Assembly (NCBI GenBank): GCA_023423605.1
Contig: JAFAFF010000020.1
Location: forward strand, 1-20,880
Direction of reading: 5' to 3'
Length of the DNA: 20,880 nucleotides
Origin: Pseudomonadota bacterium
GTDB lineage: Bacteria; Pseudomonadota; Gammaproteobacteria; Xanthomonadales; Xanthomonadaceae
Below the pieces are notes generated by a model. It did not search any database. It had not been told where the DNA came from and worked only from the letters and a program-made list of their open reading frames with translations. Position 1 is the first letter of the stretch. Every line of letters starts with the position of its first letter. The translations under genes were made by a program, and so were the position numbers. Shown one piece after another: positions 4,335 to 17,772 of this stretch.

Positions 4335-5531
4335 TCAGTTGCCATACAGGCGGTTACGAAGGGCGATGGTGGTCTGGTAGACCGCGCGCATGCGCCCATC
4401 GCTCGGCGCGGTGAAGGTCACGCCCAGTGCATTCAGTTCGGCCGAACCTGATGCCTGGCGTGCGGCGGCCGGGTCCGGGCTGGACATCAACAGGCCCAGC
4501 TGTACGGCGCCGACGCGCCGCCATGCGAGCGCGTCATCGGCAGGCACGGAGGCCAGCACCGATGTGGCCGTGCCCTGCCTGTCGATATAGCCGGTCGGTG
4601 CCGTGGTGGACAGCGCACGGTCCTGGCCGTACAGCAGCTGCATGTTCTCCACGCCCTCTACCAGCGCCTCCGGAGCGCTGGCGACCAGATCACCACTGGG
4701 CTTGGCCGAAAAACGCACCCTGTACAGGGAGGTGCCGCCGGTATCGGCGTCGCGTCCCACGTAGTAGACCGCGCTCTCCGCACGATGCAGCATCGCCTGC
4801 CCGGTGGTGTACAGGCTGGTGAAGGAGCGGTCGCCATTGAGCTTGCCGGTATAGAAGGCAATCCGCCCACCGGCAGCATCCACCGCATTGGCCTGGAACG
4901 TGGTGACGGACAGGCAGTCGGCCACGGCGAACAGGCCGGGGTCCTCGACGCCGCTGCGCAGCACGTCAAAACGCGTTCCGTCGAAATGGAACGTCGGTGT
5001 ATCCGGGGCATCGGTGATGGAGGTTACCGGCACGCCATCAGGCATCAGATAACGCAGGGAAACCATGTCGCTGCCGTCCACCCGGTTACTGGTCGCGTTG
5101 GCGATCACATCCGGCAGTGCCGGGGTATACGCCGTTCCCCCGGTCGCAGGTGTGGTGGCGATGGTCACCGATGTGCCCGGTCCGGTATCGGTAGCTTCGA
5201 AGCCCTGGATGGAACGGGTGAAATCCAGCACGGGTTGGTTGGCGCCATCCAGCGTGGAGTTCAGCGAACCGGGTGACTGCAACGTATGCGCCTGGTCGTT
5301 GACGCAGCCGAAATGGCCGGCCATGCGCAGTTCGCGCTGCAGCGAATCCATCGCGAAGCGGCTGTTTTCCTGCACGCGGGCCAGGCCTTCGGACAGCTGG
5401 TAGGCCGCGCGCGAGGCGGCGAACACCTGGATGACTCCCAGCATGACGATCAGGCCGATGACCATGGCGATCATCAGCTCGATCAGCGACAGGCCGGCCA
5501 TCCGCCGGATCTTGGATAGCGGGCGGCTCAC
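4335..5531 (-). CDS. pilW: PilW, minor pseudopilin
   Basis: Minor pseudopilin of the type IV pilus tip complex, 398 aa. It begins with GTG, overlapping the pilV stop as GTGA. The type III leader MSRPLSKIRRMAG is cut after G13 by prepilin peptidase PilD. The mature N-terminus LSLIELMIAMVIG has Glu at mature position 5 and a long hydrophobic helix. The conserved PilW stretch ENSRFAMDSLQRELRMAGHFGC follows at about residues 81-102. The long globular C-terminal part is typical of PilW, which is much larger than the other minor pilins. Seven bases separate its stop from the pilX start. An in-frame ATG at residue 11 leaves too short a leader, so the GTG is preferred. Confidence 0.93.
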   Translation of the reverse strand: MSRPLSKIRRMAGLSLIELMIAMVIGLIVMLGVIQVFAASRAAYQLSEGLARVQENSRFAMDSLQRELRMAGHFGCVNDQAHTLQSPGSLNSTLDGANQPVLDFTRSIQGFEATDTGPGTSVTIATTPATGGTAYTPALPDVIANATSNRVDGSDMVSLRYLMPDGVPVTSITDAPDTPTFHFDGTRFDVLRSGVEDPGLFAVADCLSVTTFQANAVDAAGGRIAFYTGKLNGDRSFTSLYTTGQAMLHRAESAVYYVGRDADTGGTSLYRVRFSAKPSGDLVASAPEALVEGVENMQLLYGQDRALSTTAPTGYIDRQGTATSVLASVPADDALAWRRVGAVQLGLLMSSPDPAAARQASGSAELNALGVTFTAPSDGRMRAVYQTTIALRNRLYGN

Positions 5532-5992
5532 AGGATGGTCCTCGCGGTGAAGGTGGTGTCTTCCGCTTCCGGGTTCCAGCGCTCATCGCCCCAGGTGACG
5601 TTGACGGTGATCTCCGAACCGTTGCGCACCACCGTTGCCGTGGCATTTTCGCCCAGCGCCTTGCCCAGCCGGCACCGCCAATCGGTCATGAACACTTGCT
5701 GGGTGATGTTCTGGCCGGTCGGCGAGGTGCAGTCCTCCTTGGCGACGCTGGCCTGGTAGGTACCTGCATACAGTGTCGCGGCGACACGGTTCATACGGAT
5801 CTGGTCGAGCAGTTCGTAGCTGAGATTGGTGGCCTGGGTACGGTAGTTCGCGCTCTGCACGTACCGCACGTTCATCGTCTGCAGCAACGCAAACCCCAGC
5901 AGGCCGAAGCCCAGTACCAGGATCGCGATCAGCACTTCGATCAGGCTGAAGCCGCCCTGCTGGCGGCGACGGGCGTGGATGGCACGCATCAT
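5528..5992 (-). CDS. pilV: PilV, minor pseudopilin
   Basis: Minor type IV pilus pseudopilin, 154 aa from this start. The leader MMRAIHARRRQQGG ends in the prepilin peptidase site after G14, followed by FSLIEVLIAILVLGFGLLGFALLQ with Glu at mature position 5. The motif ANYRTQATNLSYELLDQIRMNR is typical of PilV. Start choice: AAGGA lies 9 nt before the ATG at 5992, which also overlaps the fimT stop as ATGA. Another ATG six bases upstream (5998) is only 3-4 nt from the same ribosome-binding sequence. The frame is open much further upstream, but that part is antisense-like sequence inside fimT. Its stop overlaps the pilW GTG. Confidence 0.92.
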   Translation of the reverse strand: MMRAIHARRRQQGGFSLIEVLIAILVLGFGLLGFALLQTMNVRYVQSANYRTQATNLSYELLDQIRMNRVAATLYAGTYQASVAKEDCTSPTGQNITQQVFMTDWRCRLGKALGENATATVVRNGSEITVNVTWGDERWNPEAEDTTFTARTIL

Positions 5993-6507
5993 GCGCATGC
6001 TTCCTTGTGCAACCGGACCTGTCCGGTCGGTGAGATGGTCAGCCTTCGCTGCAGATCCTGCTTGCCGCATTCGTCCGGCCGCAGGGTGATGTCCTGTGCG
6101 GCCGCAGCGCGGTTCCGGCCACGTCCATCGAACGCCACGGTCAGCTCCGGGTCGCTGGCGCCCTCGATATCCGGACGGCCCTCGGAAAAACGCAGCACCG
6201 TTTCGGTACTGTCGAATTCGCCGTCGCCGTTGGTATCGGCCCATACCATCCAGCCGTTCGACCAGGCATCGCCATCGCAGCCAGTGCCGTCCAGCGAGGC
6301 ACACACTGCGGCACCGCGCGTGTTCTTGACGGCTTCGGAGCGGGCCAGCGACAGGGCGGCGATCAGCTCATTGGACGTGGTCGCCATCCGGTTCGAGCGG
6401 AGGGTGGCCTGGAAGCTCGGATACGCGATGCCGGCCAGGATCGCCAGCACGGCGATGGTGACCATCAGTTCGAGCAGAGTGAAGCCGTTGGCCCGGCGCA
6501 ATGACAT
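5989..6507 (-). CDS. fimT: GspH/FimT-family pseudopilin
   Basis: First gene of the minor pilin operon and a member of the GspH/FimT (FimT/FimU) pseudopilin family, 172 aa. The short leader MSLRRANG ends at the prepilin peptidase site after G8. The mature protein begins FTLLELMVTIAVLAILAGIAYP, with Glu at mature position 5 and the AYPSF turn that ends the helix. The GspH-domain pattern SNELIAALSLARSEAVKNTRGAAVC and a NGWMVWADTNGDGEFD strand follow. In Pseudomonas the corresponding position holds fimU/fimT upstream of pilV. GAGCG lies shortly before the ATG. The 207-base gap to ppnN probably contains the operon promoter, but I see no convincing -35/-10 pair in it. Confidence 0.9.
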   Translation of the reverse strand: MSLRRANGFTLLELMVTIAVLAILAGIAYPSFQATLRSNRMATTSNELIAALSLARSEAVKNTRGAAVCASLDGTGCDGDAWSNGWMVWADTNGDGEFDSTETVLRFSEGRPDIEGASDPELTVAFDGRGRNRAAAAQDITLRPDECGKQDLQRRLTISPTGQVRLHKEACA

Positions 6508-6690
6508 GGAACGCTCCCCAGCGTGATGGCCGCCACGATGCCCCGACGCCGCCCGTCCGGCAAGCAGCGGCAGGACGAACGGTCATTCCCGGGTGACAGG
6601 CGTCAAAAGATCGGCGCGCGGCGACGAAGATGTCCCGAAACCCATGGCCAGGCCCCCTTCACTGCCCCGGACGGCAAGGTAACGGCCAAC

Positions 6691-6704
6691 GGCCGGCACC
6701 GGCC
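6691..6704. terminator. GC-rich perfect hairpin just after the ppnN stop
   Basis: GGCCGG-CA-CCGGCC is a perfect inverted repeat about ten bases past the ppnN stop codon, with flanking GTAAC (6679-6683) and GTTAC (6714-6718) also complementary. There is no T-run after it on the minus strand, so intrinsic termination is uncertain; it may only stabilise the 3' end. Confidence 0.3.
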
Positions 6705-6714
6705 TGCCGCAGGG

Positions 6715-8109
6715 TTACGCAAGCACCTGGTAGCAGGGCTTGTATTCCCCGGAGATCTTCATGCGGCGCTGGTCCACGAACGCGCGCAGCAGCCCATCCA
6801 GTGCCTGCATCATGTCCGCGTCGCCATGGATCTGGAACGGACCGAACTCCTCGATGCGGCGCATGCCGTCTTCCTTGACGTTGCCGGCGACGATGCCGGA
6901 GAACGCACGACGCAGGTCCGCCGCCAGCGCATGCGGCGGGCGCCCATGGTGCAGGTCCAGGGCGGCCATGGCTTCGTGCGTGGGCACGAACGGCTGCTGG
7001 AATTCCCACGGAATGTCGATGGACCAGTTGAAGAAGAACGAGTCCTTCTGCGCCAGGCGGTATTCGCGCACCTGCTTGATGCCGGCCGACATCGTCCTGG
7101 CCACGGCGGTCGGATCGCCGATGATGATCTGGTAGCGCTCGGCCGCCGCATCGCCCAGCGTGAGGCGGATGAAGCGATCGATCTGCTCGAAATAAGGCGC
7201 CGCCACGGTGGGGCCGGTCAGGATCAGCGGGAACGGCAGGTCCTTGTTCTCCTCGCGCAGCAGAATGCCAAGCAGGTACAGAATTTCCTCTGCGGTGCCC
7301 ACGCCACCGGCGAACACGATGATGCCGTGGCCGATGCGCACGAACGCTTCCAGGCGCTTTTCGATGTCCGGGGTGATGACCAGGTGGTTGACGATCGGAT
7401 TCGGCGACTCGGCGGCGATGATGCCCGGCTCGGTCAGGCCGATATAGCGTGTTACGGTCCTGCGCTGCTTGGCATGGGCGATGGTGGCGCCCTTCATCGG
7501 CCCCTTCATCGCGCCCGGGCCGCAACCGGTGCAGATGTCCAGGCCGCGCAGGCCCAGCTCGTAGCCCACCTGCTTGGTGTACAGGTATTCGTCGCGACCG
7601 ATGGAGTGGCCGCCCCAGCACACCACCAGGTTGGGATCGCCCGGGTTGAGGATGCGTGCGTTGCGCAGCAGCCCGAACACGGCGTTGGTGATGCCTTCGG
7701 AGGTTTCCAGTTCGGCCGCGTAGGCCGGACCCATTTCGATGGCCATGTAGGCCAGGTCGCGCACCACGGCGAACAGCAGTTCGGCGACGCCGCGGATGAT
7801 CTCGCCATCCACGAAGGCCATCGCCGGTGCGTTGGCCAGGTCGATGCGCACGCCACGGTCCTGCTGCGCCACCTGGATATCGAAATCGGGGTACAGATCG
7901 CGTGCGGCGCGCGGATCGTCCGATGCGCTGCCGCTGGTCAGCACCGCCAGCGCGCAGCGCCGCAGCAGCTCATGCATGCCACCACCGGAGGCATCGCGTA
8001 GGCGCGCTACCTCCGCCCGCGACAGCACATCCAGCCCACCACGCGGGTAGATCCGCGCGTCCTGCACCGGCAGCGTCCGCGCCGGCTTTTCAATGATCGT
8101 CATATCCAC
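6715..8109 (-). CDS. ppnN: PpnN, pyrimidine/purine nucleotide 5'-monophosphate nucleosidase (LOG family)
   Basis: Cytoplasmic nucleosidase that hydrolyses nucleoside monophosphates to free base and ribose 5-phosphate. In E. coli PpnN (YgdH) it is activated by (p)ppGpp. The protein is 464 aa, against about 454 in E. coli, and shows the full architecture. The N-terminal domain has AVLTSGS (55-61) and RGVRIDL. The central Rossmann/LOG domain has WGGHSIG (165-171), GCGPGAMKGPMKGA (195-208) and AGGVGTAEE (267-275). The C-terminal domain has LAADLRRAFSGIVAGNVKEDG and RRIEEFGPFQIHGD. The LOG signature is normally PGGxGTxxE; here Ala267 replaces the proline while the rest is kept. GTG at 8109 is the chosen start because GAGG lies 8 nt upstream; an ATG two codons later is 14 nt away. 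A terminator-like hairpin precedes the gene. Confidence 0.95.
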   Translation of the reverse strand: MDMTIIEKPARTLPVQDARIYPRGGLDVLSRAEVARLRDASGGGMHELLRRCALAVLTSGSASDDPRAARDLYPDFDIQVAQQDRGVRIDLANAPAMAFVDGEIIRGVAELLFAVVRDLAYMAIEMGPAYAAELETSEGITNAVFGLLRNARILNPGDPNLVVCWGGHSIGRDEYLYTKQVGYELGLRGLDICTGCGPGAMKGPMKGATIAHAKQRRTVTRYIGLTEPGIIAAESPNPIVNHLVITPDIEKRLEAFVRIGHGIIVFAGGVGTAEEILYLLGILLREENKDLPFPLILTGPTVAAPYFEQIDRFIRLTLGDAAAERYQIIIGDPTAVARTMSAGIKQVREYRLAQKDSFFFNWSIDIPWEFQQPFVPTHEAMAALDLHHGRPPHALAADLRRAFSGIVAGNVKEDGMRRIEEFGPFQIHGDADMMQALDGLLRAFVDQRRMKISGEYKPCYQVLA

Positions 8110-8346: not shown

Positions 8347-11300
8347 TCAGAACTCGTAACGCAGGGTCAGCATGGCCGACCAGCGCGACACCACGCGGGA
8401 CGGATAGCCCGAGCTGAAGTCGTAGGTTTCCAGCGGCTGCGGCGAAGCCTTGGACAGGTCGTACTGGTACTTGCCATCGCCCGTGACGGTGGCCCCGGTC
8501 AGGTAACGCGTGTCGAAGCCACCCACGTTGCGGGTGTTGCCCCAGTCCTTGTCCAGCATGTTCAGGAAGTTGTAGATATCCAGACGCAGGATCGACTTGT
8601 GCTCCTTGAAGAAGCCCGGCAGTTCCTGCTGGATGGCGATATCCAGCTGGTTGACCCACGGATTGCGCGCACCATTGCGGTCAGCCACGCCACCACGACG
8701 TGCCGCCAAGTACGGATCGGCATCGATACGGGCCTGGAAGGCCGCGATCTGGTCAGCCGAAGCGGCACCGTTGCGGCCATTGACGAAGACCACATTCGGG
8801 TCGTTCATCAGCGGAATGTACGCCGGATCCTGGAAAATACCGTCGCCGTTGAGATCGCCATCGACGATCCAGGTGTACGGCAGACCATCATGCCCGTTGT
8901 AGAAACCGGTGACGCTGGTCTTGTAGTCACCGAAGAACGCATGCTCCCAACCCAGCGACAGCTTGATCGAGTTGCGGATTTCACGGGTCGAACGGCCAGC
9001 GATTTCCTCGTTCGGATTGAGGCGCGACACATACTGGTAGCTGGACCACGCCTGCGAGCTGGTGTCCGAACCCACTTCCGTAGCCTTGGTGTAGGTGTAC
9101 GCCAGGTTGCCGTACCAGCCGTTGGCCATCGGCTTGTCCAGCGAGAAGGTCACTGCGGTGGACGAGCCCTTGTCGCTGTTGGTCAGGTAGGTCGAACGGG
9201 TGTCATAGCCCAGGACAGCGCCAGCATTCTTGGTGCCACCCGGAGTAACCCAGTAGCTGTCGCGACCGTCGAACAGCTGGCCCTGCGGCGTGCCGATGTT
9301 CAGCGCGTTGTAGAACACCGCATCCTTGTTCTTCAGGTGCAGCAGTTCGACCGTGCCGACCATGCCCATCCACGGCAGCTCGTGATCGTAGCCCAGGGTG
9401 AACTTGTAGACCGACGGCAGCTTGAAGTCCGGATCGATGGTATCCATCTGCGCGTTCGTCGGCGCACTGGCACCTGCCGGGAACGGCTGGTTGTACGGAT
9501 CCGGACTGAAGGCGTACTGGTTGCCGATATTCTGCTGGCAGCCACGGATGCTGACATCAGCACGCGTAGCGCAGAAGGTACCGGCGGCTACGCCGTTGTT
9601 CTGGTACGGATTGGCCAGCCACACGAACGGCGGGACCGACTGGAACAGGCCCGCGCCGCCACGCAGCTGCGAGTAACGCTCGGTGTCGAACGCGTAGTTG
9701 AAGGCGAAGCGCGGCATGATGACCTTGTTGCTGCTGCCGAGCTTGTAGTCATTGCGGAAGCCGAAGGTTTCCTCGAAGCCCGGCTTGGTCGGCGGCGCCT
9801 TCTTCGCCTTCGGCACGTTCATGCGCAGGCCATAGGTGACCGACAGGTTGTTGTTGACCTGCCAGGTATCCTGGATGAACGGGCTGATCTGGCTGAACTC
9901 GATCTGCGCAGCGGTATCGTCTTCGGTGAAGCCGCCGACCGGGCGACGCACGTCATAACGGTAGTAGTTGCCGTCGGCGAAGTCCTGGATGCTGTCGAAC
10001 GAGTAGACACCATGCAGGTCGCGGCCGTACATGTTGTAGGCCTCGGTGTTCTGGTAATCGACACCACCCTTGATGGTGTGGTCGCCAGCATAGTAGGTAC
10101 CGAAGAACGACGCGGTCAGCTTCTTGGTGTCGATCGCGTTCTCGTGGCGGTTGCGGTCCTCACCGAAACGCACGCCGTTGGTCGAGCCCGCAACGGTGCT
10201 GGCCACGCCGACGTTGATGGCCGGCAGATCCTGCGAGGCGCCCGAGATCTGCGAGAACTTCTGATAGCTGACCTTGGCTTCGGTGGTGAAGTTGTCGGAC
10301 CAGTCGCTGAACAGCTGCAGCGAGGTGTTCTTGGTCTCGCTGGCCTTGGTGAACCAGCGGCTGGTCAGGATGATCGAATTGGAATTGCTGTCATACGGCT
10401 GCGGCAGCGTTTCTTCGGTCTGCTGATAGGTCAGGCTGGCGCGGTGGGAGTCGCTGATGTTCCAGTCGATCTTGCCCAGGTAGCGCTTGTTGGTCAGGTT
10501 GACGCCACCGGACGCACCATAGGTACCCGCGTCGATGCCGTAGCGGCTCTTGGCGATATCGATGACCTGGTTGATCTCGTCCTGGGTCACCGCGCCGGTG
10601 CTGAAGCCATCCGAAGATGCCGCGCCGCCGAAATCGGTGATTTCCTGTTCTTCGTACGAACCGAAGAAAAACAGGCGATCCTTCAGGATCGGGCCGCCGA
10701 GGGTGAAGCCCTTGGTGGTGTCCTTGCCGAACGCATCGTAGTCCTCGCCATCACGCGAACCGACCATGCTGTCGGCTTTCTTGTACACGTAGTACGCCGA
10801 ACCGTGGAATTCGTTGGTACCGGACTTGGTGACGGCGTTGACGGCCGCACCGACCACGTCCTGCGACACGTCGAAATCGCTGACGTTGATGTCGTACGCG
10901 GCGATGGTGTCCACCGAGATCGGCGAACCGGTGTACGGCATGCCGTTGGCGTTCAGGCCGAACGGGTCGCCCTGCGACAGGCCATCGACGGAGATGCTGT
11001 TGTAACGGTTGTTGACGCCGGCCACGGAGATGGCACCGGTCGCTTGGTCGGTCACGGTGACGCGCGGGTCGAGACGGGCAACGTCATCGAGCGAGCGGCT
11101 GCCCTTCGGCGCCAGCTCCAGCTTGCGGCCATCGACCGAGGTGCCGATGCCCTTGGTTTCCGAACTGAACACGCTCGGGCCGGCCGCCATGACGGTCACG
11201 CCGTCCAGCGACTTGATGTCGCCGGTCAGCGCCGCGTTGACGGTGCCCACCTGGTTCAGGCTCAGGAAAACGCCATCTTCAGTCTTGGTGCCCTCACCCG

Positions 11301-11562
11301 GCTTGGTGATGGTGACGGTGTACGGTCCGCCGACGCGCAGGCCGCGCGCAACGTAACGACCCGACGCATCGGTGGTCGCACGTGATACGGTGCCCGATTC
11401 GGTGTGGGTGATGGTGACTTCGGCGCCGACGACAGGCGTACCTGCGTTGGACGTGACCTGGCCGCCGAGACCAGCAGAAGTGCTCTGGGCAAAGGCGGGG
11501 GCAGCGGCAAGTGCGGCCACGAGACCAAGGGTGAGCTTGGACATCCGGAGTGGGTGGTTCAT
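8347..11562 (-). CDS. Oar-like TonB-dependent outer-membrane receptor with CarboxypepD_reg domain
   Basis: Outer-membrane beta-barrel transporter energised by TonB, 1071 aa; the substrate cannot be told from sequence. A signal peptide (MNHPLRMSKLTLGLVAALAA, then APAFA) is cut about A25. A carboxypeptidase-regulatory-like beta-sandwich follows at roughly 29-112 (GGQVTSNAGTPVVGAEVTITH...TTDASGRYVARGLRVGGPYTVTI). The plug is at about 130-250, with LDDVARLDPRVTVTD, VDGLSQGDPFGLNANGMPY and VVGAAVNAVTKSGTNEFHGS. The rest is barrel, ending MLTLRYEF with the C-terminal aromatic typical of outer-membrane proteins. Length and domain order match the Oar group, common in Xanthomonadaceae. GAGG lies 9 nt before the ATG. 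It is a single gene with its own terminator and a 230-base upstream region. VTVMAAG near residue 125 may be the TonB-box-like segment. Confidence 0.92.
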   Translation of the reverse strand: MNHPLRMSKLTLGLVAALAAAPAFAQSTSAGLGGQVTSNAGTPVVGAEVTITHTESGTVSRATTDASGRYVARGLRVGGPYTVTITKPGEGTKTEDGVFLSLNQVGTVNAALTGDIKSLDGVTVMAAGPSVFSSETKGIGTSVDGRKLELAPKGSRSLDDVARLDPRVTVTDQATGAISVAGVNNRYNSISVDGLSQGDPFGLNANGMPYTGSPISVDTIAAYDINVSDFDVSQDVVGAAVNAVTKSGTNEFHGSAYYVYKKADSMVGSRDGEDYDAFGKDTTKGFTLGGPILKDRLFFFGSYEEQEITDFGGAASSDGFSTGAVTQDEINQVIDIAKSRYGIDAGTYGASGGVNLTNKRYLGKIDWNISDSHRASLTYQQTEETLPQPYDSNSNSIILTSRWFTKASETKNTSLQLFSDWSDNFTTEAKVSYQKFSQISGASQDLPAINVGVASTVAGSTNGVRFGEDRNRHENAIDTKKLTASFFGTYYAGDHTIKGGVDYQNTEAYNMYGRDLHGVYSFDSIQDFADGNYYRYDVRRPVGGFTEDDTAAQIEFSQISPFIQDTWQVNNNLSVTYGLRMNVPKAKKAPPTKPGFEETFGFRNDYKLGSSNKVIMPRFAFNYAFDTERYSQLRGGAGLFQSVPPFVWLANPYQNNGVAAGTFCATRADVSIRGCQQNIGNQYAFSPDPYNQPFPAGASAPTNAQMDTIDPDFKLPSVYKFTLGYDHELPWMGMVGTVELLHLKNKDAVFYNALNIGTPQGQLFDGRDSYWVTPGGTKNAGAVLGYDTRSTYLTNSDKGSSTAVTFSLDKPMANGWYGNLAYTYTKATEVGSDTSSQAWSSYQYVSRLNPNEEIAGRSTREIRNSIKLSLGWEHAFFGDYKTSVTGFYNGHDGLPYTWIVDGDLNGDGIFQDPAYIPLMNDPNVVFVNGRNGAASADQIAAFQARIDADPYLAARRGGVADRNGARNPWVNQLDIAIQQELPGFFKEHKSILRLDIYNFLNMLDKDWGNTRNVGGFDTRYLTGATVTGDGKYQYDLSKASPQPLETYDFSSGYPSRVVSRWSAMLTLRYEF

Positions 11563-11680
11563 CTAGGGTAGCCTCGATGGGAGTTGGCGATGGCGGAAAA
11601 AACGCATCCGTACAGCCTTGCGGGCGGCTGGACGGAAATTTATCTGGGGTTCCCGACCGTGAACGGCGGGCGCCGCAACG

Positions 11681-11697
11681 GTTAACAATAGATTAAC
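11681..11697. promoter_or_regulatory. GTTAA/TTAAC inverted repeat upstream of the receptor gene
   Basis: GTTAA-N7-TTAAC lies about 120 bases upstream of the receptor start in an AT-rich island within a GC-rich gap. It resembles an operator half-site pair, or AT-rich promoter DNA. No regulator can be assigned. The rest of the 230-base gap (11563-11792) shows nothing else I can name. Confidence 0.25.
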
Positions 11698-11792
11698 ACG
11701 GTACGATCTGATTGTGACGGTAGTGCGACAAAAGGCACGCCATCGCAACGGCACCTTGACGCGACCTTCACATCAACAGGGTGATGACGCCA

Positions 11793-12560
11793 CTATCCAG
11801 CCATTTGCCCCTGGAGCGATTCCACCGCCAGCACCTGCCCCCGCCATGTCAAGCCTTCTGACGCCAACAGCCGCACCGCCGCCGCCGCCGCGGTTTCCGG
11901 GCCTTGGGCGGCCTCGTCCTGGTCCAGCGACCAGGCCCGTGCCCTGAGGGCAGTACGCATCGGCCCGGGCTGCAGCCCCGCCACCCGCACCGGCGTACCC
12001 TGCAGCTCACCGTGCAGGCTGGCCAACAGGCCGCGCAGTCCATGCTGAGCGGCCCCGTAACCGCCCCAGTACGCGGCCCCTACCCGCGCCGGATCGTCCA
12101 CGCACAATACGATGGCGGCATCCGGCTGCTGGCGCAGCAGTGGCAGGCAGGCCTGCAGCAACCATGCCGGGGCGGTGAGGGTCACATGCAGCGAACGAGC
12201 GAACGCCGCCGGATCGGCAAGCGCGAACGGCGTCAGGCCGGGGAAATCGGCCGCGCAGACCAGCACGCCATCCAGCCTGCCCAGCTCGCTGTGCAGGCGT
12301 GCGGCCAGCTCGGCGAAGTCGTCCGGGCTGGCTCCTTCCAGGTCCATCGGATAAAGCAGCGGCTCTGGCCCCACCGCCTGCACGTCCTGGTAGACACGGT
12401 CCAGCCGGCGCGGCTTGCGGCCCAGCAGCACCACGGTGGCCCCGGCACGGGCGCAGGCCACCGCCGCAGCGCTGCCCAGGCCGCCCCCTGCGCCGACGAT
12501 GAGGATCACCCGGCCATCCAGCACCTGGTCCTCGGGAACAGGCGACGGACGGGCACTCAT
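11793..12560 (-). CDS. SDR-fold protein related to YciK, catalytic residues degenerate
   Basis: Short-chain dehydrogenase/reductase fold, 255 aa, closest by eye to E. coli YciK. The nucleotide-binding loop is kept as GAGGGLG (23-29), followed by GATVVLLGRK and RLDGVL. The catalytic tetrad is largely gone: aligned to YciK, the usual Asn is Thr127, the catalytic Ser is Asp155 (CVDDPARVG), Tyr168 is kept, and the Lys of YxxxK is Gln172 (YGAAQ). The NAG motif after beta4 reads CAA (102-104). C-terminal QPGPMRTALRARA matches the family's PGxxRT(A/P)(M/L)RA region. It may bind a dinucleotide without normal oxidoreductase chemistry; function unknown. Its ATG overlaps the grx4 stop (ATGA), so the two are co-translated. 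The frame is intact with normal codon use, so this is not a decayed gene. Confidence 0.85.
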   Translation of the reverse strand: MSARPSPVPEDQVLDGRVILIVGAGGGLGSAAAVACARAGATVVLLGRKPRRLDRVYQDVQAVGPEPLLYPMDLEGASPDDFAELAARLHSELGRLDGVLVCAADFPGLTPFALADPAAFARSLHVTLTAPAWLLQACLPLLRQQPDAAIVLCVDDPARVGAAYWGGYGAAQHGLRGLLASLHGELQGTPVRVAGLQPGPMRTALRARAWSLDQDEAAQGPETAAAAAVRLLASEGLTWRGQVLAVESLQGQMAG

Positions 12561-12883
12561 GCGACGGAGGCTTCTTCGACGATGCGCTTGAGCTCGCCGG
12601 ATTCGAACAGCTCCATGATGATGTCGCAGCCACCGATCAGCTCACCATGCATGAACAGCTGCGGGAACGTGGGCAGGTTCGAGAACCGCGGAAGGTTCGC
12701 GCGTATTTCCGGCTCCTCCAGCACGTTGATGGTGCGCAGCGAAACGGCGCCGGCCGCCATCAATGCCTGTACGGCACGGCTGGAAAAGCCGCACATGGGG
12801 TACTGCGGCGTGCCCTTCATGTACAGCACGAGCGGGTAACGGTCGACCTCGGCCTGGATCTGCTGCATCACTGCCACAACCAC
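12557..12883 (-). CDS. grxD: Grx4-type monothiol glutaredoxin (CGFS)
   Basis: Monothiol glutaredoxin of the CGFS class, 108 aa, which carries and transfers [2Fe-2S] clusters with glutathione and BolA-type partners. The active-site motif CGFS is at residues 31-34 (YPMCGFSSRAV), preceded by LVLYMKGTPQYP. The glutathione-binding TFPQLF (cis-Pro) and GGCDI motifs follow near residues 72-87. Length is that of a single-domain Grx4. GGAGG lies 4 nt before the GTG at 12883 and 10 nt before another GTG at 12877, so the start may be two codons later. The downstream SDR gene overlaps it; the SOD-like gene diverges from it 112 bases away. Confidence 0.93.
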   Translation of the reverse strand: MVVAVMQQIQAEVDRYPLVLYMKGTPQYPMCGFSSRAVQALMAAGAVSLRTINVLEEPEIRANLPRFSNLPTFPQLFMHGELIGGCDIIMELFESGELKRIVEEASVA

Positions 12884-12995
12884 ACTGCCTCCTGCTGGAA
12901 GAACCCGACCGCGCCGGTCGGCTAGACTTCACCACGGTAACCGTCATTGTATGCCGATGGAACCTGCCACGGCGCCCACCTGTCATCCTGATCGC

Positions 12996-13577
12996 ATGCC
13001 CATCGAACCTGCCGCCCTGCCCTACCCGCCTGCCGCGCTGCAACCGCACCTGTCCGAACGGGCGGTCCTGCTGCAGCATGGGCAGCACCAGCGTGCCTGT
13101 CTGGATGCGGTAAACGCGCACATGGCGGGAACCGAGCGCGAACAGGCCCCATTGGAACAGGTGCTGCGCGAAGCGCAGGGCAGCGTGTTCGAGGCCGCCG
13201 CCCAGGCCTGGAACCTGCAGTTCCAATGGCAGTGCCTGCGCCCGCGGGGCGGTGGCGAACCGCAGGGCCGGCTGGCCGACCTGGTCAAGCGGCGCTTTGG
13301 CGATACCGCCCAGCTTAGGCAGGCATTCAACGATGCCGCGTTGGGTCTGTTCGGCTCCGGCTGGGCATGGCTGGTGCAGCATCCCGATGGCAGCCTGGCC
13401 ATCCTGGTGACGCGCAATGCGGGCACACCATTGACTGGCAGCAGCACACCGCTGCTGGGCTGCAACCTGTGGGAACACGCCTATTACCTGGATTACCAGA
13501 ACGACCGCGCGCGGTATCTGGAAGCGTGGTGGCAGATGGTGAACTGGGAGTTCGCTGCGAGCCAGCTGCAGGGCTGA
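12996..13577 (+). CDS. Fe/Mn superoxide dismutase-fold protein lacking three of four metal ligands
   Basis: Unmistakable SodB-type sequence (ALPYPPAALQPHL; FGSGWAWLV; NAGTPLTGSSTPLLG; WEHAYYLDYQN; MVNWEF). From this ATG it is 193 aa and colinear, without gaps, with E. coli FeSOD. At that numbering the metal ligands are H27 to Gln, H74 to Leu (WNLQFQW), D157 to Asn (GCNLWEHAYY), with only H161 kept. The active-site Tyr35 is Cys, while Gln70 is kept. It should therefore not bind the catalytic metal normally and is probably a pseudoenzyme. The reading frame is complete with no stop or frameshift. An in-frame ATG at 12951 would add 15 residues with no counterpart in SodB; neither start has a strong ribosome-binding site. 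It diverges from grx4 and ends just before palindromic repeats. Confidence 0.9.
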   Translation: MPIEPAALPYPPAALQPHLSERAVLLQHGQHQRACLDAVNAHMAGTEREQAPLEQVLREAQGSVFEAAAQAWNLQFQWQCLRPRGGGEPQGRLADLVKRRFGDTAQLRQAFNDAALGLFGSGWAWLVQHPDGSLAILVTRNAGTPLTGSSTPLLGCNLWEHAYYLDYQNDRARYLEAWWQMVNWEFAASQLQG

Positions 13578-13602
13578 CGCCTGCACGTATCCCATCCGCC
13601 GT

Positions 13603-13663
13603 GTAGAGCGGGGCTCTGCCCCGCTGCGCGGTGACACTTCAGCCGGGCAGAGCCCGGCTCTAC
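13603..13663. repeat. SMAG-like (GTAG) palindromic repeat pair 1
   Basis: Two inverted 23-base elements, each beginning GTAGAGC with internal stems (GCGGGGC/GCCCCGC at 13603-13625; the GCCGGGC form at 13641-13663, opposite orientation). Such extragenic palindromes are characteristic of Stenotrophomonas. The pair can also fold on itself and lies just past the SOD-like gene. Confidence 0.8.
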
Positions 13664-13690
13664 ACCGCTGCACGGTGAAGCCCCAGCCAT

Positions 13691-13751
13691 GTAGAGCGGG
13701 GTTCTGCCCCGCTGCGCGGTGATGTCCCAGCCGGGCAGAGCCCGGCTCTAC
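13691..13751. repeat. SMAG-like (GTAG) palindromic repeat pair 2
   Basis: A near copy of the preceding pair: GTAGAGCGGGG form at 13691-13713 (with GTTCTG in the loop side) and the inverted GCCGGGC form at 13729-13751, ending 12 bases before the nadC stop. Together the four elements fill the gap between two convergent genes and probably stabilise or end both transcripts. Confidence 0.8.
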
Positions 13752-13763
13752 ATTGGGCATTGG

Positions 13764-14621
13764 TCAGGCGGGGGGCGGGCCCAGCTTCAATGACAGGTCA
13801 ATGGCCTGCACGTGCTTGGTCAGGCCGCCGATGGATATGCAGTCCACGCCATCTTCGGCGATGGCCCGCAGCCCTTCCAGGCCGACACTGCCGGATACTT
13901 CCAGCGGAATGCGTCCCGCGGTGATCCGCACGGCTTCGCGGCGCGACCGCGCATCGAAGTCATCCAGCAGGATGCGCTCGCATCCGGCCTGCAATGCCTC
14001 TTCCAGCTGCCCCAGGTCCTCGACCTCCACCACCAGTGGCAACCCGCGCCACATGGCCCGTGCTGCGGCCACCGCTGCGGCGAGCGACCCGGCGGCGCGG
14101 ATGTGGTTTTCCTTCAACATCACCGTGTCGTACAGGCCAAGCCGGTGATTTTCCCCGCCTCCGCAGCGCACCGCGTATTTCTGCGCGGCACGCAGGCCAG
14201 GCAGGGTCTTGCGGGTATCCAGGATGCGTGTCGCGGTTCCCGCCACTGCATACACGTACGCGGCGGTGGTCGTGGCGGTACCGGACAACGTCTGCAGGAA
14301 ATTCAGCGACGTGCGCTCGGCGCTCACCAGCGCACGGCTGCGGCCCTGCAGCAGCGCAAGCACGGTTCCGGCGGCAACGCGCTCGCCATCGGCCACGTTC
14401 CATTGGATGCGCACGTCCGGATCGAGCGCACGGTGGGTGGCATCGAACCATGGCTGGCCGGCGATGACCGCCTCCTGCTTGCACAGCAGGTAGGCGCAGT
14501 CCGCCGTCTCCGGCAACAACGCGGCGGTGACATCACCGCTACCGATATCCTCAGCCAGCGCGCGGGCGACATCGCCGGCCACTGCCGCCGCATCCGGAGC
14601 CGGCACCGACGAGCCGGTCAT
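13764..14621 (-). CDS. nadC: NadC, nicotinate-nucleotide pyrophosphorylase (carboxylating)
   Basis: Quinolinate phosphoribosyltransferase, 285 aa. It converts quinolinate and PRPP to nicotinate mononucleotide, CO2 and pyrophosphate in de novo NAD synthesis (cytoplasm). Family motifs appear in order: LAEDIGSGDVTAALLP near the N-terminus, AERTSLNFLQTLSGTATTT (about 100-118), DTRKTLPGLRAAQKYAVRCGGGENHR (about 134-159), MLKENHI, VEVEDL, LLDDF and EVSGSV with the C-terminal phosphate-binding SIGGLTK. The Arg, Lys and His residues that bind the substrate carboxylates and phosphates are in these conserved blocks. The ATG overlaps the stop of the upstream small gene (ATGA). Confidence 0.96.
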   Translation of the reverse strand: MTGSSVPAPDAAAVAGDVARALAEDIGSGDVTAALLPETADCAYLLCKQEAVIAGQPWFDATHRALDPDVRIQWNVADGERVAAGTVLALLQGRSRALVSAERTSLNFLQTLSGTATTTAAYVYAVAGTATRILDTRKTLPGLRAAQKYAVRCGGGENHRLGLYDTVMLKENHIRAAGSLAAAVAAARAMWRGLPLVVEVEDLGQLEEALQAGCERILLDDFDARSRREAVRITAGRIPLEVSGSVGLEGLRAIAEDGVDCISIGGLTKHVQAIDLSLKLGPPPA

Positions 14622-14887
14622 GCTGCCGGGAAATCGGTGATCTGTGCGGTGGGGATGGCCTCTTCGGCCAGCAGCACCGGAATGCCGTCATCCAGCCGGA
14701 AGACCTGCCGGCGGTCGCGGGTGACCAGCGCCTGGCGCAGCGGCTGGGCCAGCGGATTGCCATCGGCCTTGTTCACCGTGCCGGCTTCGATGGCTCGATT
14801 GAGCACTTCCAGCCCCTTGGCGTCCAGCAGGGAAAGAGGCTGGCGGGTGTCGGGCGATACCAGCAGATCGAGCAGCTTGCGGTCCAT
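14618..14887 (-). CDS. YcaR/Trm112-like small protein lacking the zinc cysteines
   Basis: An 89-aa protein matching the YcaR/Trm112 (UPF0434) family at both ends: MDRKLLDLLVSPDTRQPL corresponds to the E. coli YcaR start, and RLDDGIPVLLAEEA to its conserved RDGIPVLL block. The CPxC knuckle near residue 11 reads SPDT, and the whole protein has no cysteine, so it cannot form the usual zinc site. It also carries a longer middle (about residues 24-55) than YcaR. Family members are small partner or stabilising proteins (Trm112 activates methyltransferases); the role here is unknown. It is translationally coupled to nadC and diverges from purE. Confidence 0.75.
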   Translation of the reverse strand: MDRKLLDLLVSPDTRQPLSLLDAKGLEVLNRAIEAGTVNKADGNPLAQPLRQALVTRDRRQVFRLDDGIPVLLAEEAIPTAQITDFPAA

Positions 14888-14893
14888 GATTCT

Positions 14894-14920
14894 TTGTCTT
14901 GCGTGGAAGATGGCTAGAAT
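14894..14920 (+). promoter_or_regulatory. Candidate purEK promoter
   Basis: TAGAAT (14915-14920) is a good -10 box 25 bases before the purE ATG. TTGTCT (14894-14899) is the nearest -35-like element with a short 15-bp spacer. AGGTGA (14934-14939) is the purE ribosome-binding site. No PurR-box-like palindrome is obvious. Confidence 0.5.
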
Positions 14921-14945
14921 ACGTCTTTAAGGCAGGTGACGGCCA

Positions 14946-15449
14946 ATGACCCTCAACCAATCCACGCCGCTCGTCGGCATCATCATGGGTTCCCGTTCCG
15001 ACTGGGAGACCATGCAGCACGCTGCCCAGAAGCTCGACGCGCTGGGCGTTCCGTTCGAAGTGAAGGTGGTATCGGCGCACCGCACACCCGATGTCCTGTT
15101 TTCATATGCAGAACAGGCCGGCGCACGCGGGCTGCGTGCCATCATCGCCGGCGCCGGCGGTGCAGCGCACCTGCCGGGCATGATTGCCGCCAAGACCGCC
15201 GTGCCGGTGCTGGGCGTGCCCGTGCAGTCCAAGGCGCTCAACGGCATGGATTCGCTGCTGTCCATCGTGCAGATGCCGGCCGGCGTTCCGGTGGCCACCT
15301 TCGCCATCGGCAATGCGGGGGCTTCCAATGCCGCACTGTTCGCAGCGGCCATGCTGGCCAGCGACCAGCCGGCGATCGGCCAGGCGCTGGATGCCTTCCG
15401 CACGCGCCAGACTGAAGACGTGATGGCCCACGACGATCCGCGTCAATGA
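14946..15449 (+). CDS. purE: PurE, N5-carboxyaminoimidazole ribonucleotide mutase
   Basis: Moves the carboxylate of N5-CAIR to give CAIR in de novo purine synthesis; 167 aa, the size of class I (bacterial) PurE. Motifs: [13 protein letters not shown] (residues 11-23) with the SDxxTM phosphate loop, VVSAHRTPD (42-50) with the active-site histidine, [14 protein letters not shown] (66-79), and [10 protein letters not shown]...[20 protein letters not shown]. The presence of purK immediately downstream agrees with the two-step bacterial route rather than the one-step animal enzyme. The stop overlaps the purK ATG (ATGA). Confidence 0.97.
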
Positions 15450-16594
15450 GCACGAAGACGGTCGGTATCCTGGGGGGCGGCCAGCTCGCCCGCATGATGG
15501 TCCTGGCGGGTGCACCGCTGGGCCTGCGTTTTGAACTGTTCGATCCTGCCGCCGATGCGTGTGGTGCACCGCTGGCGCCACTGACCGTCGGTGCGTTCGA
15601 TGACCGCCAGGCGCTGGCGGACTTTGCTGCCCGGGTCGATGTGGTGACCTTCGATTTCGAGAACGTACCGGCCGACAGCGCGCAGTGGCTGGCCGCACGC
15701 GTGCCGGTATATCCGCCGCCGTCTGCCCTGGCGGTGGCACAGGACCGGCTGAGCGAGAAGACCCTGTTCCAGCAGCTGGGCATCCCGCTGCCGGCCTTCG
15801 CCGACATCCGCAGCCGTGACGAACTGGCAGCGAAGGCCGCCGAATTCGGCCTGCCATGCATCCTCAAGACGCGACGCCTGGGATATGACGGCAAGGGCCA
15901 GTTCCGGCTGCGCAGCGATGCCGATATCGATGCCGCATGGCAGGCTCTGGGCGATCAGGTGGAGCGTACCGGGTTGATCCTGGAAGGCTTCGTCGCGTTC
16001 CAGCGCGAGGTCAGCGTCATTGCCGTGCGCGGGCGCGATGGCGAGTTCCGTGCGTGGCCGGTAACCGGCAACTGGCATGTGGATGGCGTGCTCTCGGCGA
16101 GCGTGGCCCCGGCGGTGCTGTCGGCGGCCGAACAGGAGGCGGCGGTGGGCTATGCGCGCCGGCTGGCCGAGCACCTGCAGTATGTCGGTGTGTTCGCGCT
16201 GGAGCTGTTCTGTCGCGATGGCGAGCTGCTGGCCAACGAGATGGCGCCACGCGTGCACAATTCCGGCCACTGGACCATCGAAGGCAGCGAGACCTCGCAG
16301 TTCGAGAATCACCTGCGCGCGGTGCTGGGCCTGCCGCTGGGCGACACGCGCATGCTGGGCCATGCCTGCATGTTGAACTGGATTGGTGCGATGCCTGATC
16401 CGGCCCCGGTACTGGCACAGGCCAGCGGCCACTGGCATGACTACGGCAAGCACCCACGCGAGGGCCGCAAGGTTGGCCATGCAACGTTGCGCGACGACGA
16501 TGCGGCGGTGCTGGCCGATGCGTTGCAACAGGCGGGCGATGCGCTGGGCCGGCAGGCGCAGGTGGAACCGGCGATCCGCGCCCTGCGCGGGTGA
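15446..16594 (+). CDS. purK: PurK, N5-carboxyaminoimidazole ribonucleotide synthase
   Basis: ATP-grasp enzyme making N5-CAIR from AIR, bicarbonate and ATP, feeding PurE; 382 aa. Motifs in order: [12 protein letters not shown] (8-19), [40 protein letters not shown] (ATP-grasp), [18 protein letters not shown], and the C-terminal block [18 protein letters not shown] with [17 protein letters not shown]. All the conserved parts of the family are present. It is translationally coupled to purE. The gap after it holds a palindrome pair rather than another operon gene. Confidence 0.97.
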
Positions 16595-16651
16595 CCTGGC
16601 CGGCAGGGACAGAGGGGGGCCGGGCCCTGATGCATTGCGCCGCAGCGGAGA

Positions 16652-16712
16652 GTAGAGCCGGGCTCTGCCCGGCTGAAGGATTGTCGCGCAGCGGGGCAGA
16701 GCCCCGCTCTAC
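16652..16712. repeat. SMAG-like (GTAG) palindromic repeat pair 3
   Basis: GTAGAGCCGGGC form at 16652-16674 and inverted AGCGGGGCAGAG form ending CTCTAC at 16690-16712, about 60 bases after purK. Compared with pairs 1 and 2 the two stem variants appear in the opposite order. It fills most of the purK to DUF2272 gap and may end the purEK transcript. Confidence 0.8.
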
Positions 16713-16788
16713 GTGTTGGCGGTGCCTTCACGGTTCGGGCACGCGGCATTCTGCGAGGCTGGAGCTACCCCATGAGACGGAGCACCGC

Positions 16789-17772
16789 ATGCGCCGGTTG
16801 CCACTTGCCTGCCTGCTGCCGCTGTGCGCGCTGTCGCTGGATGCGGCCGCCGCCGAAGCCTGCGATGTTCCTCCCCGCTTCGGCCTGAGCCCACTGGCAG
16901 TGTCCATCCGCGATACGGCCTGCAACGAGCACCGCCTGTGGTACCGCCCTTTCATCGACCGTGAGGGCCGCGCAGCCAGCCTGGCCGTCACCGAAGCGGA
17001 AAGCGAGCATCTTGCCGACAATGGACTGATTGCCTGGCAGCGGGTCGCCGGCTACTGGCGCGAAAGTGGCACGTTGAACGCGATGGGCAGCCTGCCTGGC
17101 GCCAGCAGCTGCATCGCACCGTTGGGTTCGCGCTATACCGACAGCGACTGCCGTGCGTTCCTGATCGACAATCCCTGGTCGGCCGCCTTCATCTCCTGGG
17201 TGATGGTGCGCGCGGGCGTTCCCGGCTTCAACGCATCCCCGCGCCATATCGATTACATCCGCCAGGCGTATACCGGTGGCTCGCCCTATCGGCTGACGGA
17301 TCCGGCAACGGAGAAGCCCGCACCGGGTGACCTGCTGTGCTTCCTGCGCGACCGCCGCGAAACGCTCAGCCATGCCGGACTGGTGCAGGCGCTGGGCAAC
17401 GGTTCGGTGGGCCACTGGAAATCCCACTGCGAAGTGGTGGTGTCGGCCAACATGGGCGGCGACCACACGCTCTACCTGGTCGGTGGCAACGTGATGAATA
17501 CCGTGGCCATGCGCATGCTGAAACTGGACCGGTCCGGGCGGATCGAACTGCCCGCGGCACGCAGCGCGGAAAGCGACGGCATCGCCGCGATGTGCACGCC
17601 GGGGCGTGAAGACGAATGCAGCTTCAACCGCCAGGACTGGGCGGCGTTGCTGAAACTGACGGCGGGCGCCGCGATGCCTGCACCGGCGGCAATGCCCGCG
17701 CCCACCGGGCAACCGGGCGTGCCCACTGAGCGCGACGCGGCGCCATCGAACGTGCAGCCCGCGCTACGCTGA
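16789..17772 (+). CDS. Exported DUF2272-domain protein
   Basis: A 327-aa secreted protein of the DUF2272 family; function not established. The signal peptide MRRLPLACLLPLCALSLDAA is cut near A22. The domain spans about 60-270. It contains NPWSAAFISWVMVRAGVPGF (128-147), PAPGDLLCFL (178-186), LSHAGLVQAL (193-202) and SHCEVVVSANMGGDHTLYLVGGNV (212-235). This order resembles papain-like CHAP/NlpC folds, where the first motif carries the catalytic Cys; here it is Ser131. That relation is inference. The tail from about 296 is rich in Ala and Pro. GGAG lies 6 nt before the ATG; the frame is open back to 16591, but that part is repeat sequence and would bury the signal peptide. Confidence 0.8.
   Translation: MRRLPLACLLPLCALSLDAAAAEACDVPPRFGLSPLAVSIRDTACNEHRLWYRPFIDREGRAASLAVTEAESEHLADNGLIAWQRVAGYWRESGTLNAMGSLPGASSCIAPLGSRYTDSDCRAFLIDNPWSAAFISWVMVRAGVPGFNASPRHIDYIRQAYTGGSPYRLTDPATEKPAPGDLLCFLRDRRETLSHAGLVQALGNGSVGHWKSHCEVVVSANMGGDHTLYLVGGNVMNTVAMRMLKLDRSGRIELPAARSAESDGIAAMCTPGREDECSFNRQDWAALLKLTAGAAMPAPAAMPAPTGQPGVPTERDAAPSNVQPALR

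Follow-up and report, generated by a model that had tools for sequence, protein, structure and literature searches.

A SodB-family protein of a putative Stenotrophomonas clade that lacks most of its metal ligands and is retained under selection

What keeps a superoxide dismutase (SOD) gene intact once its product has lost most of the residues that should hold the metal? This question is raised by a gene in a 20,880-nucleotide stretch of Xanthomonadaceae DNA (contig JAFAFF010000020.1 of assembly GCA_023423605.1), which in its whole length is called the window below. An earlier note on this DNA proposed that the fold of the protein was under selection without its metal site.

The protein and its metal site

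Translation of 12996-13577 gives 193 residues with zero internal stops. In its 208-aa version the protein matches Sod_Fe_C (6e-37) and Sod_Fe_N (6.3e-12) of Pfam, and its closest NCBIfam model is SodB (PRK10543; 1.3e-64), at 217 bits and thus below the 348-bit cut-off, while the best PDB sequence match is the E. coli FeSOD (1isa; HMMER, E 1.6e-60). Both domains and a predicted SOD fold place it in the SodFM protein family. The AF2 model, built on 47 aligned sequences, reached a pLDDT of 95.6 and a pTM of 0.91, with FeSODs as top PDB matches (E. coli: TM 0.95, rmsd 1.0 Å), and comparable values (pLDDT 95.9, pTM 0.92) were obtained for P0019, a protein of the same clade with four of four ligands lost; the alignments under both models include canonical SODs, which helps such models. 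The product is predicted to fold as a SOD. In-frame ATGs also lie upstream, at 12951 and 12957, and the start site is not certain. Of ten loci compared at the conserved upstream ATG (12957 in the window), four have it in the frame of the downstream start and six out of frame, which favours a start at 12996; some database proteins (e.g., P0004, P0006, and P0013) are recorded from the upstream start.

The gene and the codons of interest, the latter assigned by alignment, are:

12996..13577, + strand: sodB orthologue encoding a pseudo-SOD of 193 aa (Q27/L74/N157/H161, C35, Q70)
13074..13076, + strand: codon 27, Gln; first metal His in canonical SodB
13098..13100, + strand: codon 35, Cys; active-site Tyr in canonical SodB
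13215..13217, + strand: codon 74, Leu; second metal His in canonical SodB
13464..13466, + strand: codon 157, Asn; metal Asp in canonical SodB
13476..13478, + strand: codon 161, His; sole retained metal ligand

At the positions that we take to be H26, H30, Y34, Q69, H73, D156, E159, and H160 of the E. coli FeSOD (E. coli numbering), the aligned window protein has Q27, H31, C35, Q70, L74, N157, E160, and H161. Hence, the three His and one Asp of the enzyme are represented by Q27, L74, N157, and H161, and the active-site Tyr34 (E. coli numbering) by Cys35, whereas the Gln69 of Fe-SODs (same numbering) is kept as Gln70, and W159, E160, and H161 of the WEH motif are all present. The alignment bears out what the earlier note had read from the letters, namely an uninterrupted frame, the changes H27Q, H74L, D157N, and Tyr35 to Cys, and the retention of H161 and Gln70; it is also gapless as claimed, not over 193 residues, but over the 188 columns (residues 4-191) aligned by HMMER. 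With its catalytic residues lost within an intact frame, the protein is by sequence a SodB-family pseudoenzyme. It probably carries no metal at the canonical site and would lack SOD activity; in principle, Asn157, Gln27, and His161 might still hold a metal weakly.

The same residue pattern occurs in three orthologues from other genomes (L113, L114, L116) and in the database protein P0002, and a further orthologue, L115, differs solely by Gln74. As the ligand losses are found across several genomes and database proteins, both a sequencing error and the decay of a single strain are ruled out.

The sodB-grxD locus

The surroundings of the gene comprise the following features:

12557..12868, − strand: glutaredoxin gene, head-to-head with sodB (Pfam Glutaredoxin, 1.2e-15)
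12869..12995, no strand: intergenic region common to sodB and grxD (ten loci aligned)
12905-12921, between grxD and sodB: palindrome CCGACCG-CGC-CGGTCGG, retained with minor changes across ten aligned loci
12945-12951: CATTGTA, promoter-like, kept in the ten loci aligned
8347-11562: CarboxypepD_reg/outer-membrane beta-barrel protein
11793-12560: short-chain dehydrogenase
4335-8109, 8347-12560, and 13764-17772: neighbours in all, i.e. PilW-like, PpnN, CarboxypepD_reg/outer-membrane beta-barrel, short-chain dehydrogenase, nadC (QRPTase), purE, purK, and DUF2272

The glutaredoxin gene, whose ORF has 108 aa if read from a GTG at 12883, is presumably grxD, of the monothiol type with a CGFS motif. 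In 132 of 133 loci examined sodB lies head-to-head with it (in the exception, L255, grxD was not found in the stretch examined), which identifies the pseudo-SodB as the sodB gene itself. This location, together with a SOD content of pseudo-SodB and one SodA only in the four nearest genomes, does not favour a paralogue or a horizontally acquired copy. The palindrome is a possible operator, and palindrome and CATTGTA may both have a promoter role. An antisense gene was also considered as the source of constraint and rejected: across 14 loci, the antisense frame that is open in the window is interrupted by zero to two stops, L114 and L115 of the clade having one apiece, and no Pfam match was obtained for the antisense ORF of 372 aa. 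Between sodB and nadC, at about 13600-13755, we spotted by eye inverted repeats (GTAGAGCGGGG...CTCTAC), which to us resemble SMAG/REP elements.

Recurrent loss of ligands among relatives

A protein search scored 7999 candidates, 1608 of which had E <= 1e-40, and the best 120 of these were analysed; database relatives (P0002-P0121 and P0124-P0139) are known from protein sequence alone. Most of the best 120 matches are named Stenotrophomonas, with few others (Xanthomonas sp. 60, Flavobacterium sp. MXW15), and from match names and trees the window and its clade would belong to this genus. The canonical seven-residue pattern was found in 87 of 121 proteins (the best 120 of 1608 plus the window protein), and at least one primary ligand was lost in 31 of them: one in 12, two in seven, three in ten, and all four in two. 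Similarly, 87 of 91 genomes of one genus, taken for Stenotrophomonas, have a SodB match (57-80% identity), and at least one ligand is lost in 11 of these 87 (one in five, two in two, three in four). Two of the four remaining genomes (G407 and G339) have a divergent SodB adjoining grxD; in the other two of the 91 (G222 and G357) neither SodB nor a close grxD was found, and either both genes were lost or the region is missing from the assemblies. In total, sodB is found in 89 of the 91 genomes, with a full-length frame in 88, and none of the 87 SodB matches first listed has an internal stop. L193 (G416), with canonical ligands, has a frame that diverges near the C-terminus, the match ending at residue 172 of a 236-aa ORF.

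In trees of chosen rows (116 rows, with near-identical rows and L193 dropped, and 71 rows), from which the seven active-site columns were left out, the window protein falls into a clade of 18 rows (SH-aLRT 95 on the 116-row tree; UFBoot/SH-aLRT 95/96 on the 71-row tree). All 18 have lost ligands: four rows lost two, 12 three, and two all four. The sister clade, by contrast, is canonical in 16 of 18 rows; it is presumably the S. maltophilia complex, as suggested by three SOD genes and by P0013 (70% identical), named Stenotrophomonas sp. SKA14. Within the clade of the window, position 27 is Q, L, or H, position 35 C, W, or Y, position 74 L, Q, or H, position 157 N, C, or S, and position 161 H, with Q in two rows. 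The loss of ligands is common to a clade, an outcome in favour of the earlier note, but the exact substituted residues vary, and these differing patterns imply that the site kept changing after the first loss. Parsimony puts the number of changes in the state 'four ligands kept' at 12 for the 116-row tree and at eight for the 71-row tree, losses and gains taken together, on trees of which many deep forks are weakly supported. Ligand loss recurs within the SodB family, including a second clade described below. In another lineage, with canonical sisters, P0138 (57% identity to the window protein) has V27, C35, L74, and N157, an apparent parallel loss.

The second clade is represented as follows:

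L267, 1921-2490, + strand: second-clade SodB
L268, 815-1381, − strand: second-clade SodB
P0124-P0133: second-clade proteins

The divergent SodB of G407 is 99% identical to P0124, a 'hypothetical protein' of S. ginsengisoli. In it and in its relatives P0125-P0133, two to four of the four ligands are gone by alignment, as is the WEHAYY motif, and the clade is well conserved at residues 1-20, 81-110, and 121-140 and at the last residues. In most of the proteins scanned (P0122, P0123, P0129, and P0131), Sod_Fe_N falls below the Pfam cut-off, and it has no match in P0133. P0134, basal to this clade (100/100), has His27, His74, Asp157, and His161, but Leu35, Glu70, and Gln160.

The wider family was sampled by 40 loci hand-picked, not at random, from 371 matching genomes: 38 in rank order after the Stenotrophomonas rows, skipping G317, G366, several rows further on, and G001, which was already in the set, and another two (G216 and G071) from lower in the ranking. 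HCEQ, HLDQ, or HYEQ was found in nine of the 40. Leu35 together with Glu70 (E. coli Y34L and Q69E), with all ligands kept, occurs in 19 of them, one of which also has Tyr31 (L227, L229, L231, L232, L234, L235, L237, L238, L240-L245, L247, L249, L251, L256, and L261). Alterations of SodB are not confined to the genus Xanthomonas.

Selection and the location of constraint

Selection was estimated by a self-written MG94-like codon model (F3x4) on 13 taxa, consisting of five DNA sequences of the clade (the window and L113-L116) and eight chosen background rows, including the altered L172 (N157); synonymous divergence is high, and most of all for L267/L268 of the second clade. Omega was 0.111 inside the clade and 0.097 in the background, and raised to 0.65 on the stem branch (about 0.65-0.76 over all fits); a model with three ratios improved on a single ratio by 2dlnL 17.6. 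An inside omega constrained to 1 cost 2dlnL 270.6, and 250.5 when the seven active-site columns were left out (inside omega 0.118). Three alternative topologies gave 0.111-0.112 inside and 0.67-0.75 on the stem. Setting the inside equal to the background cost a 2dlnL of only 0.5-0.7, i.e. the two are not distinguishable. By branch, omega was 0.113 for the window, 0.122 for L115, 0.059 for L113, 0.038 for L114, and 0.100 for L116, and 0.229 on the inner branches of the clade; by domain, it was 0.155 inside versus 0.121 in the background for the N-terminal, and 0.087 versus 0.080 for the C-terminal domain. For grxD on the same tree the values were 0.040 (background), 0.016 (inside), and 0.099 (stem). 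When evolution without constraint was simulated (300 runs per branch), the branch of the window acquired a median of four stops and 1.7% of runs stayed stop-free (L115, 2%; L113, 3%; L116, 9.7%); the actual clade sequences contain stops in zero of five cases. As far as this small codon set shows, the gene has been retained by selection after the loss of its ligands, in line with the proposal of the earlier note that the fold is selected without the metal site; a dN/dS near 1, which it had named as a counter-sign, is not what we find inside the clade.

Low values are also seen in altered lineages outside the clade of the window (0.065-0.197 overall). A Xanthomonas-like group (n=8) had 0.065 inside, 0.14 in the background, and 0.35 on its stem; scattered altered Stenotrophomonas lineages ranged from 0.073 to 0.197 with a background of 0.10, and the Leu35/Glu70 group (12 loci) had 0.126 inside, about twofold its background of 0.062, and 0.18 on its stem. 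For the second clade (L267/L268) omega was 0.10 and omega = 1 was rejected at 2dlnL 96, with synonymous sites saturated.

Column entropies of the 18 clade rows were compared with those of 40 chosen canonical rows. The canonical rows have 95 nearly invariant columns; in the clade, 52 of these show no variation at all and 28 are changed, five of the latter being pocket positions (27, 35, 74, 157, and 161). Columns outside the pocket are altered as much as those of the pocket, and some (e.g., 6, 43, 83, and 128) more. Averaged over columns, entropy amounts to 0.66 in the clade versus 0.56 in the canonical rows. Given this higher entropy, the inner-branch omega, and the N-terminal domain values, some relaxation is possible. 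In the clade, the most conserved ten-residue block is 161-170 (entropy 0.17; canonical, 0.27), W159 and E160 are invariant in 18 of 18 rows and H161 in 16 of 18, whereas positions 27, 35, 74, and 157 vary. In canonical SODs, the Trp159-Glu160 stretch and the following loop join the two subunits through the Glu-His double bridge. A further 14 positions are fixed or nearly so in a state unlike the canonical majority (e.g., Q32, R82, D131, L158, and L165), most of these states also occurring in part of the canonical rows. Taken at face value, the pattern of constraint favours a retained interface over a newly fixed catalytic site. Precisely the loop kept in the clade of the window is free to vary in the second clade (residues 161-170, entropy 2.2). 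Conservation along the sites of one clade is barely correlated with that of the other (Spearman 0.10), an argument against one identical second role; the residues invariant and identical in both number 27.

Each of the four nearest genomes has two Fe/Mn SOD matches and no more, namely the pseudo-SodB and a single SodA. In these four genomes that SodA, with all four ligands, is the canonical SOD for which the earlier note suggested looking elsewhere in the genome. Among 13 SodA sequences inspected, 12 have four ligands, and L213 aligned in its C-terminal part only. Most genomes of the sister clade have three SOD matches and a canonical SodB, with the exception of L127 (three matches, N157). Gain of SodA1 as the event that freed SodB is unsupported, as clade genomes have one SodA each and most sister-clade genomes three SOD matches.

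A possible role beyond dismutation

Among known proteins with the SOD fold, mS42 and mS43 of the yeast mitoribosome are SOD-derived subunits of a large complex. Likewise, PAP9/FSD2 of the plastid RNA polymerase (8qma, 8r6s) is a SOD fold serving as a subunit of a large assembly. These are eukaryotic organelle complexes, likened to the bacterial protein by the SOD fold. Closer to it stand E. coli SodB, of the same family, alignable without gaps and alike in predicted fold, and the canonical SodB of the genus, with the same grxD neighbourhood; both have a metal site, in contrast to the window protein with three of four ligands and the active-site Tyr missing. According to PMC6479884, S. maltophilia carries two SodA enzymes and a single SodB (Smlt1616b) with conserved ligands, and loss of SodB barely affects viability under the conditions tested, from which the authors suggest unidentified functions. 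In the same study, the triple sod mutant grows minimally and the sodA1 sodA2 double mutant grows with a defect; since the double mutant outgrows the triple mutant, S. maltophilia SodB probably still dismutates. Another bacterial likeness is the Xanthomonas SodB (XAC2677/Xac3), from the same bacterial family and beside an MnSOD, which in a 2019 study was judged highly likely inactive by homology modelling because of the second-sphere changes His31 to Cys and Tyr35 to Glu, a trait called Xanthomonas-specific, the Stenotrophomonas site being called conventional (PMC6322740). Our X. euroxanthea locus (L001) agrees with that description. L001 and its group keep the four ligands and are changed at positions 31 and 35, whereas the window protein has H31 and C35 and has lost three ligands, and hence is not of the Xac3 type (Cys31 and Glu35 with ligands kept). 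Among the best-ranked matches of a literature search that reached few subscription journals, we found no bacterial Fe/Mn SOD without its primary ligands, the Xanthomonas proposal aside, and neither genus was named in the main texts of PMC10172142 and PMC13008324 as searched by term.

Our preferred reading, to which we assign a probability of roughly 0.6, is that the pseudo-SodB is a folded, probably metal-free protein retained for a non-catalytic role after SodA took over dismutation. The gene would be the vertically inherited sodB of a Stenotrophomonas clade, in which a SodA able to carry cytosolic dismutation would have released the metal site of SodB from selection. The loss of the site would then have proceeded in steps with no overall decay of the protein, which kept the Trp159-Glu160 stretch and the loop behind it. 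The earlier note had named dimer partner of a true SOD, regulator, scaffold, and sensor as candidate roles. We hypothesize that the selected role is most likely binding or structural and was already held by SodB beside dismutation; both dimerisation and the greater age of this second role would belong to this scenario. With somewhat less than even confidence, we extend it to the Xanthomonadaceae, whose SodB may have an old metal-independent function, so that the metal site was shed repeatedly where SodA suffices, yielding several independent pseudo-SOD families, in at least one of which even the subunit-joining motif was replaced and another face newly fixed. The poor correlation in conservation and the loop freed in the second clade weigh against taking one common second role for granted.

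Alternatively, the pocket may have been remodelled into a new ligand-binding or redox-sensing site, formed for example by Cys35 with Cys156 and His161. Cys35 is present in 13 and Cys156 in 18 of 18 clade rows, the change from Tyr35 to Cys recurs outside the clade, and a reactive Cys has been pointed to, at another position, in Xanthomonas SodB (PMC6322740). However, a new active site should be fixed, and positions 35, 74, 27, and 157 vary; moreover, Cys156 is equally invariant across alignment A1, whose rows are a mixture of canonical and altered proteins. We therefore hold this reading to be unlikely. A little more doubtful still is that pseudo-SodB pairs with SodA in a heterodimer, of the kind known as hybrid SOD in E. 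coli, and modulates the activity, stability, or metal loading of SodA. The four nearest genomes do possess SodA, and the most conserved block of the clade is 161-170; yet canonical rows conserve this block as well, as homodimers would need, and the second clade has lost it.

Two further readings deny either any function or the loss of catalysis. A functionless gene in slow decay, its low omega due to selection against toxic misfolding or to saturated synonymous sites, would account for a varying pocket, for the many changes that are single-base steps in the genetic code, for the slightly higher entropy and inner-branch omega, and for the small effect of SodB loss in S. maltophilia under the conditions tested (PMC6479884). 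But an unneeded gene would be silenced or broken, and we see stops in none of five clade sequences, sodB in 89 of 91 genomes (full-length in all of these except L193), and an inside omega indistinguishable from background, so that we regard decay as quite improbable. It would be most surprising, finally, if the protein were still an enzyme, binding a metal through H161 together with Asn157, Gln27, or Gln70 and retaining a measure of SOD activity or of another redox activity: H161, Q70, and W159 are indeed kept, but Leu at 74 removes one ligand outright, and the clade members P0019 and P0020 are without H161 too (L27, L74, C157, and Q161).

If a folded pseudo-SodB with a non-catalytic role is indeed what this clade retains, the superoxide dismutase annotation of such genes would mislead. 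The Xanthomonas SodB, predicted inactive through second-sphere changes, is a partial precedent (PMC6322740). The recurrent losses would represent a natural experiment separating the enzyme chemistry of SodB from its other role, and would open to experiment the suggestion by Jair et al. that S. maltophilia SodB, which their tests found nearly dispensable for defence against superoxide, may have unidentified functions (PMC6479884).
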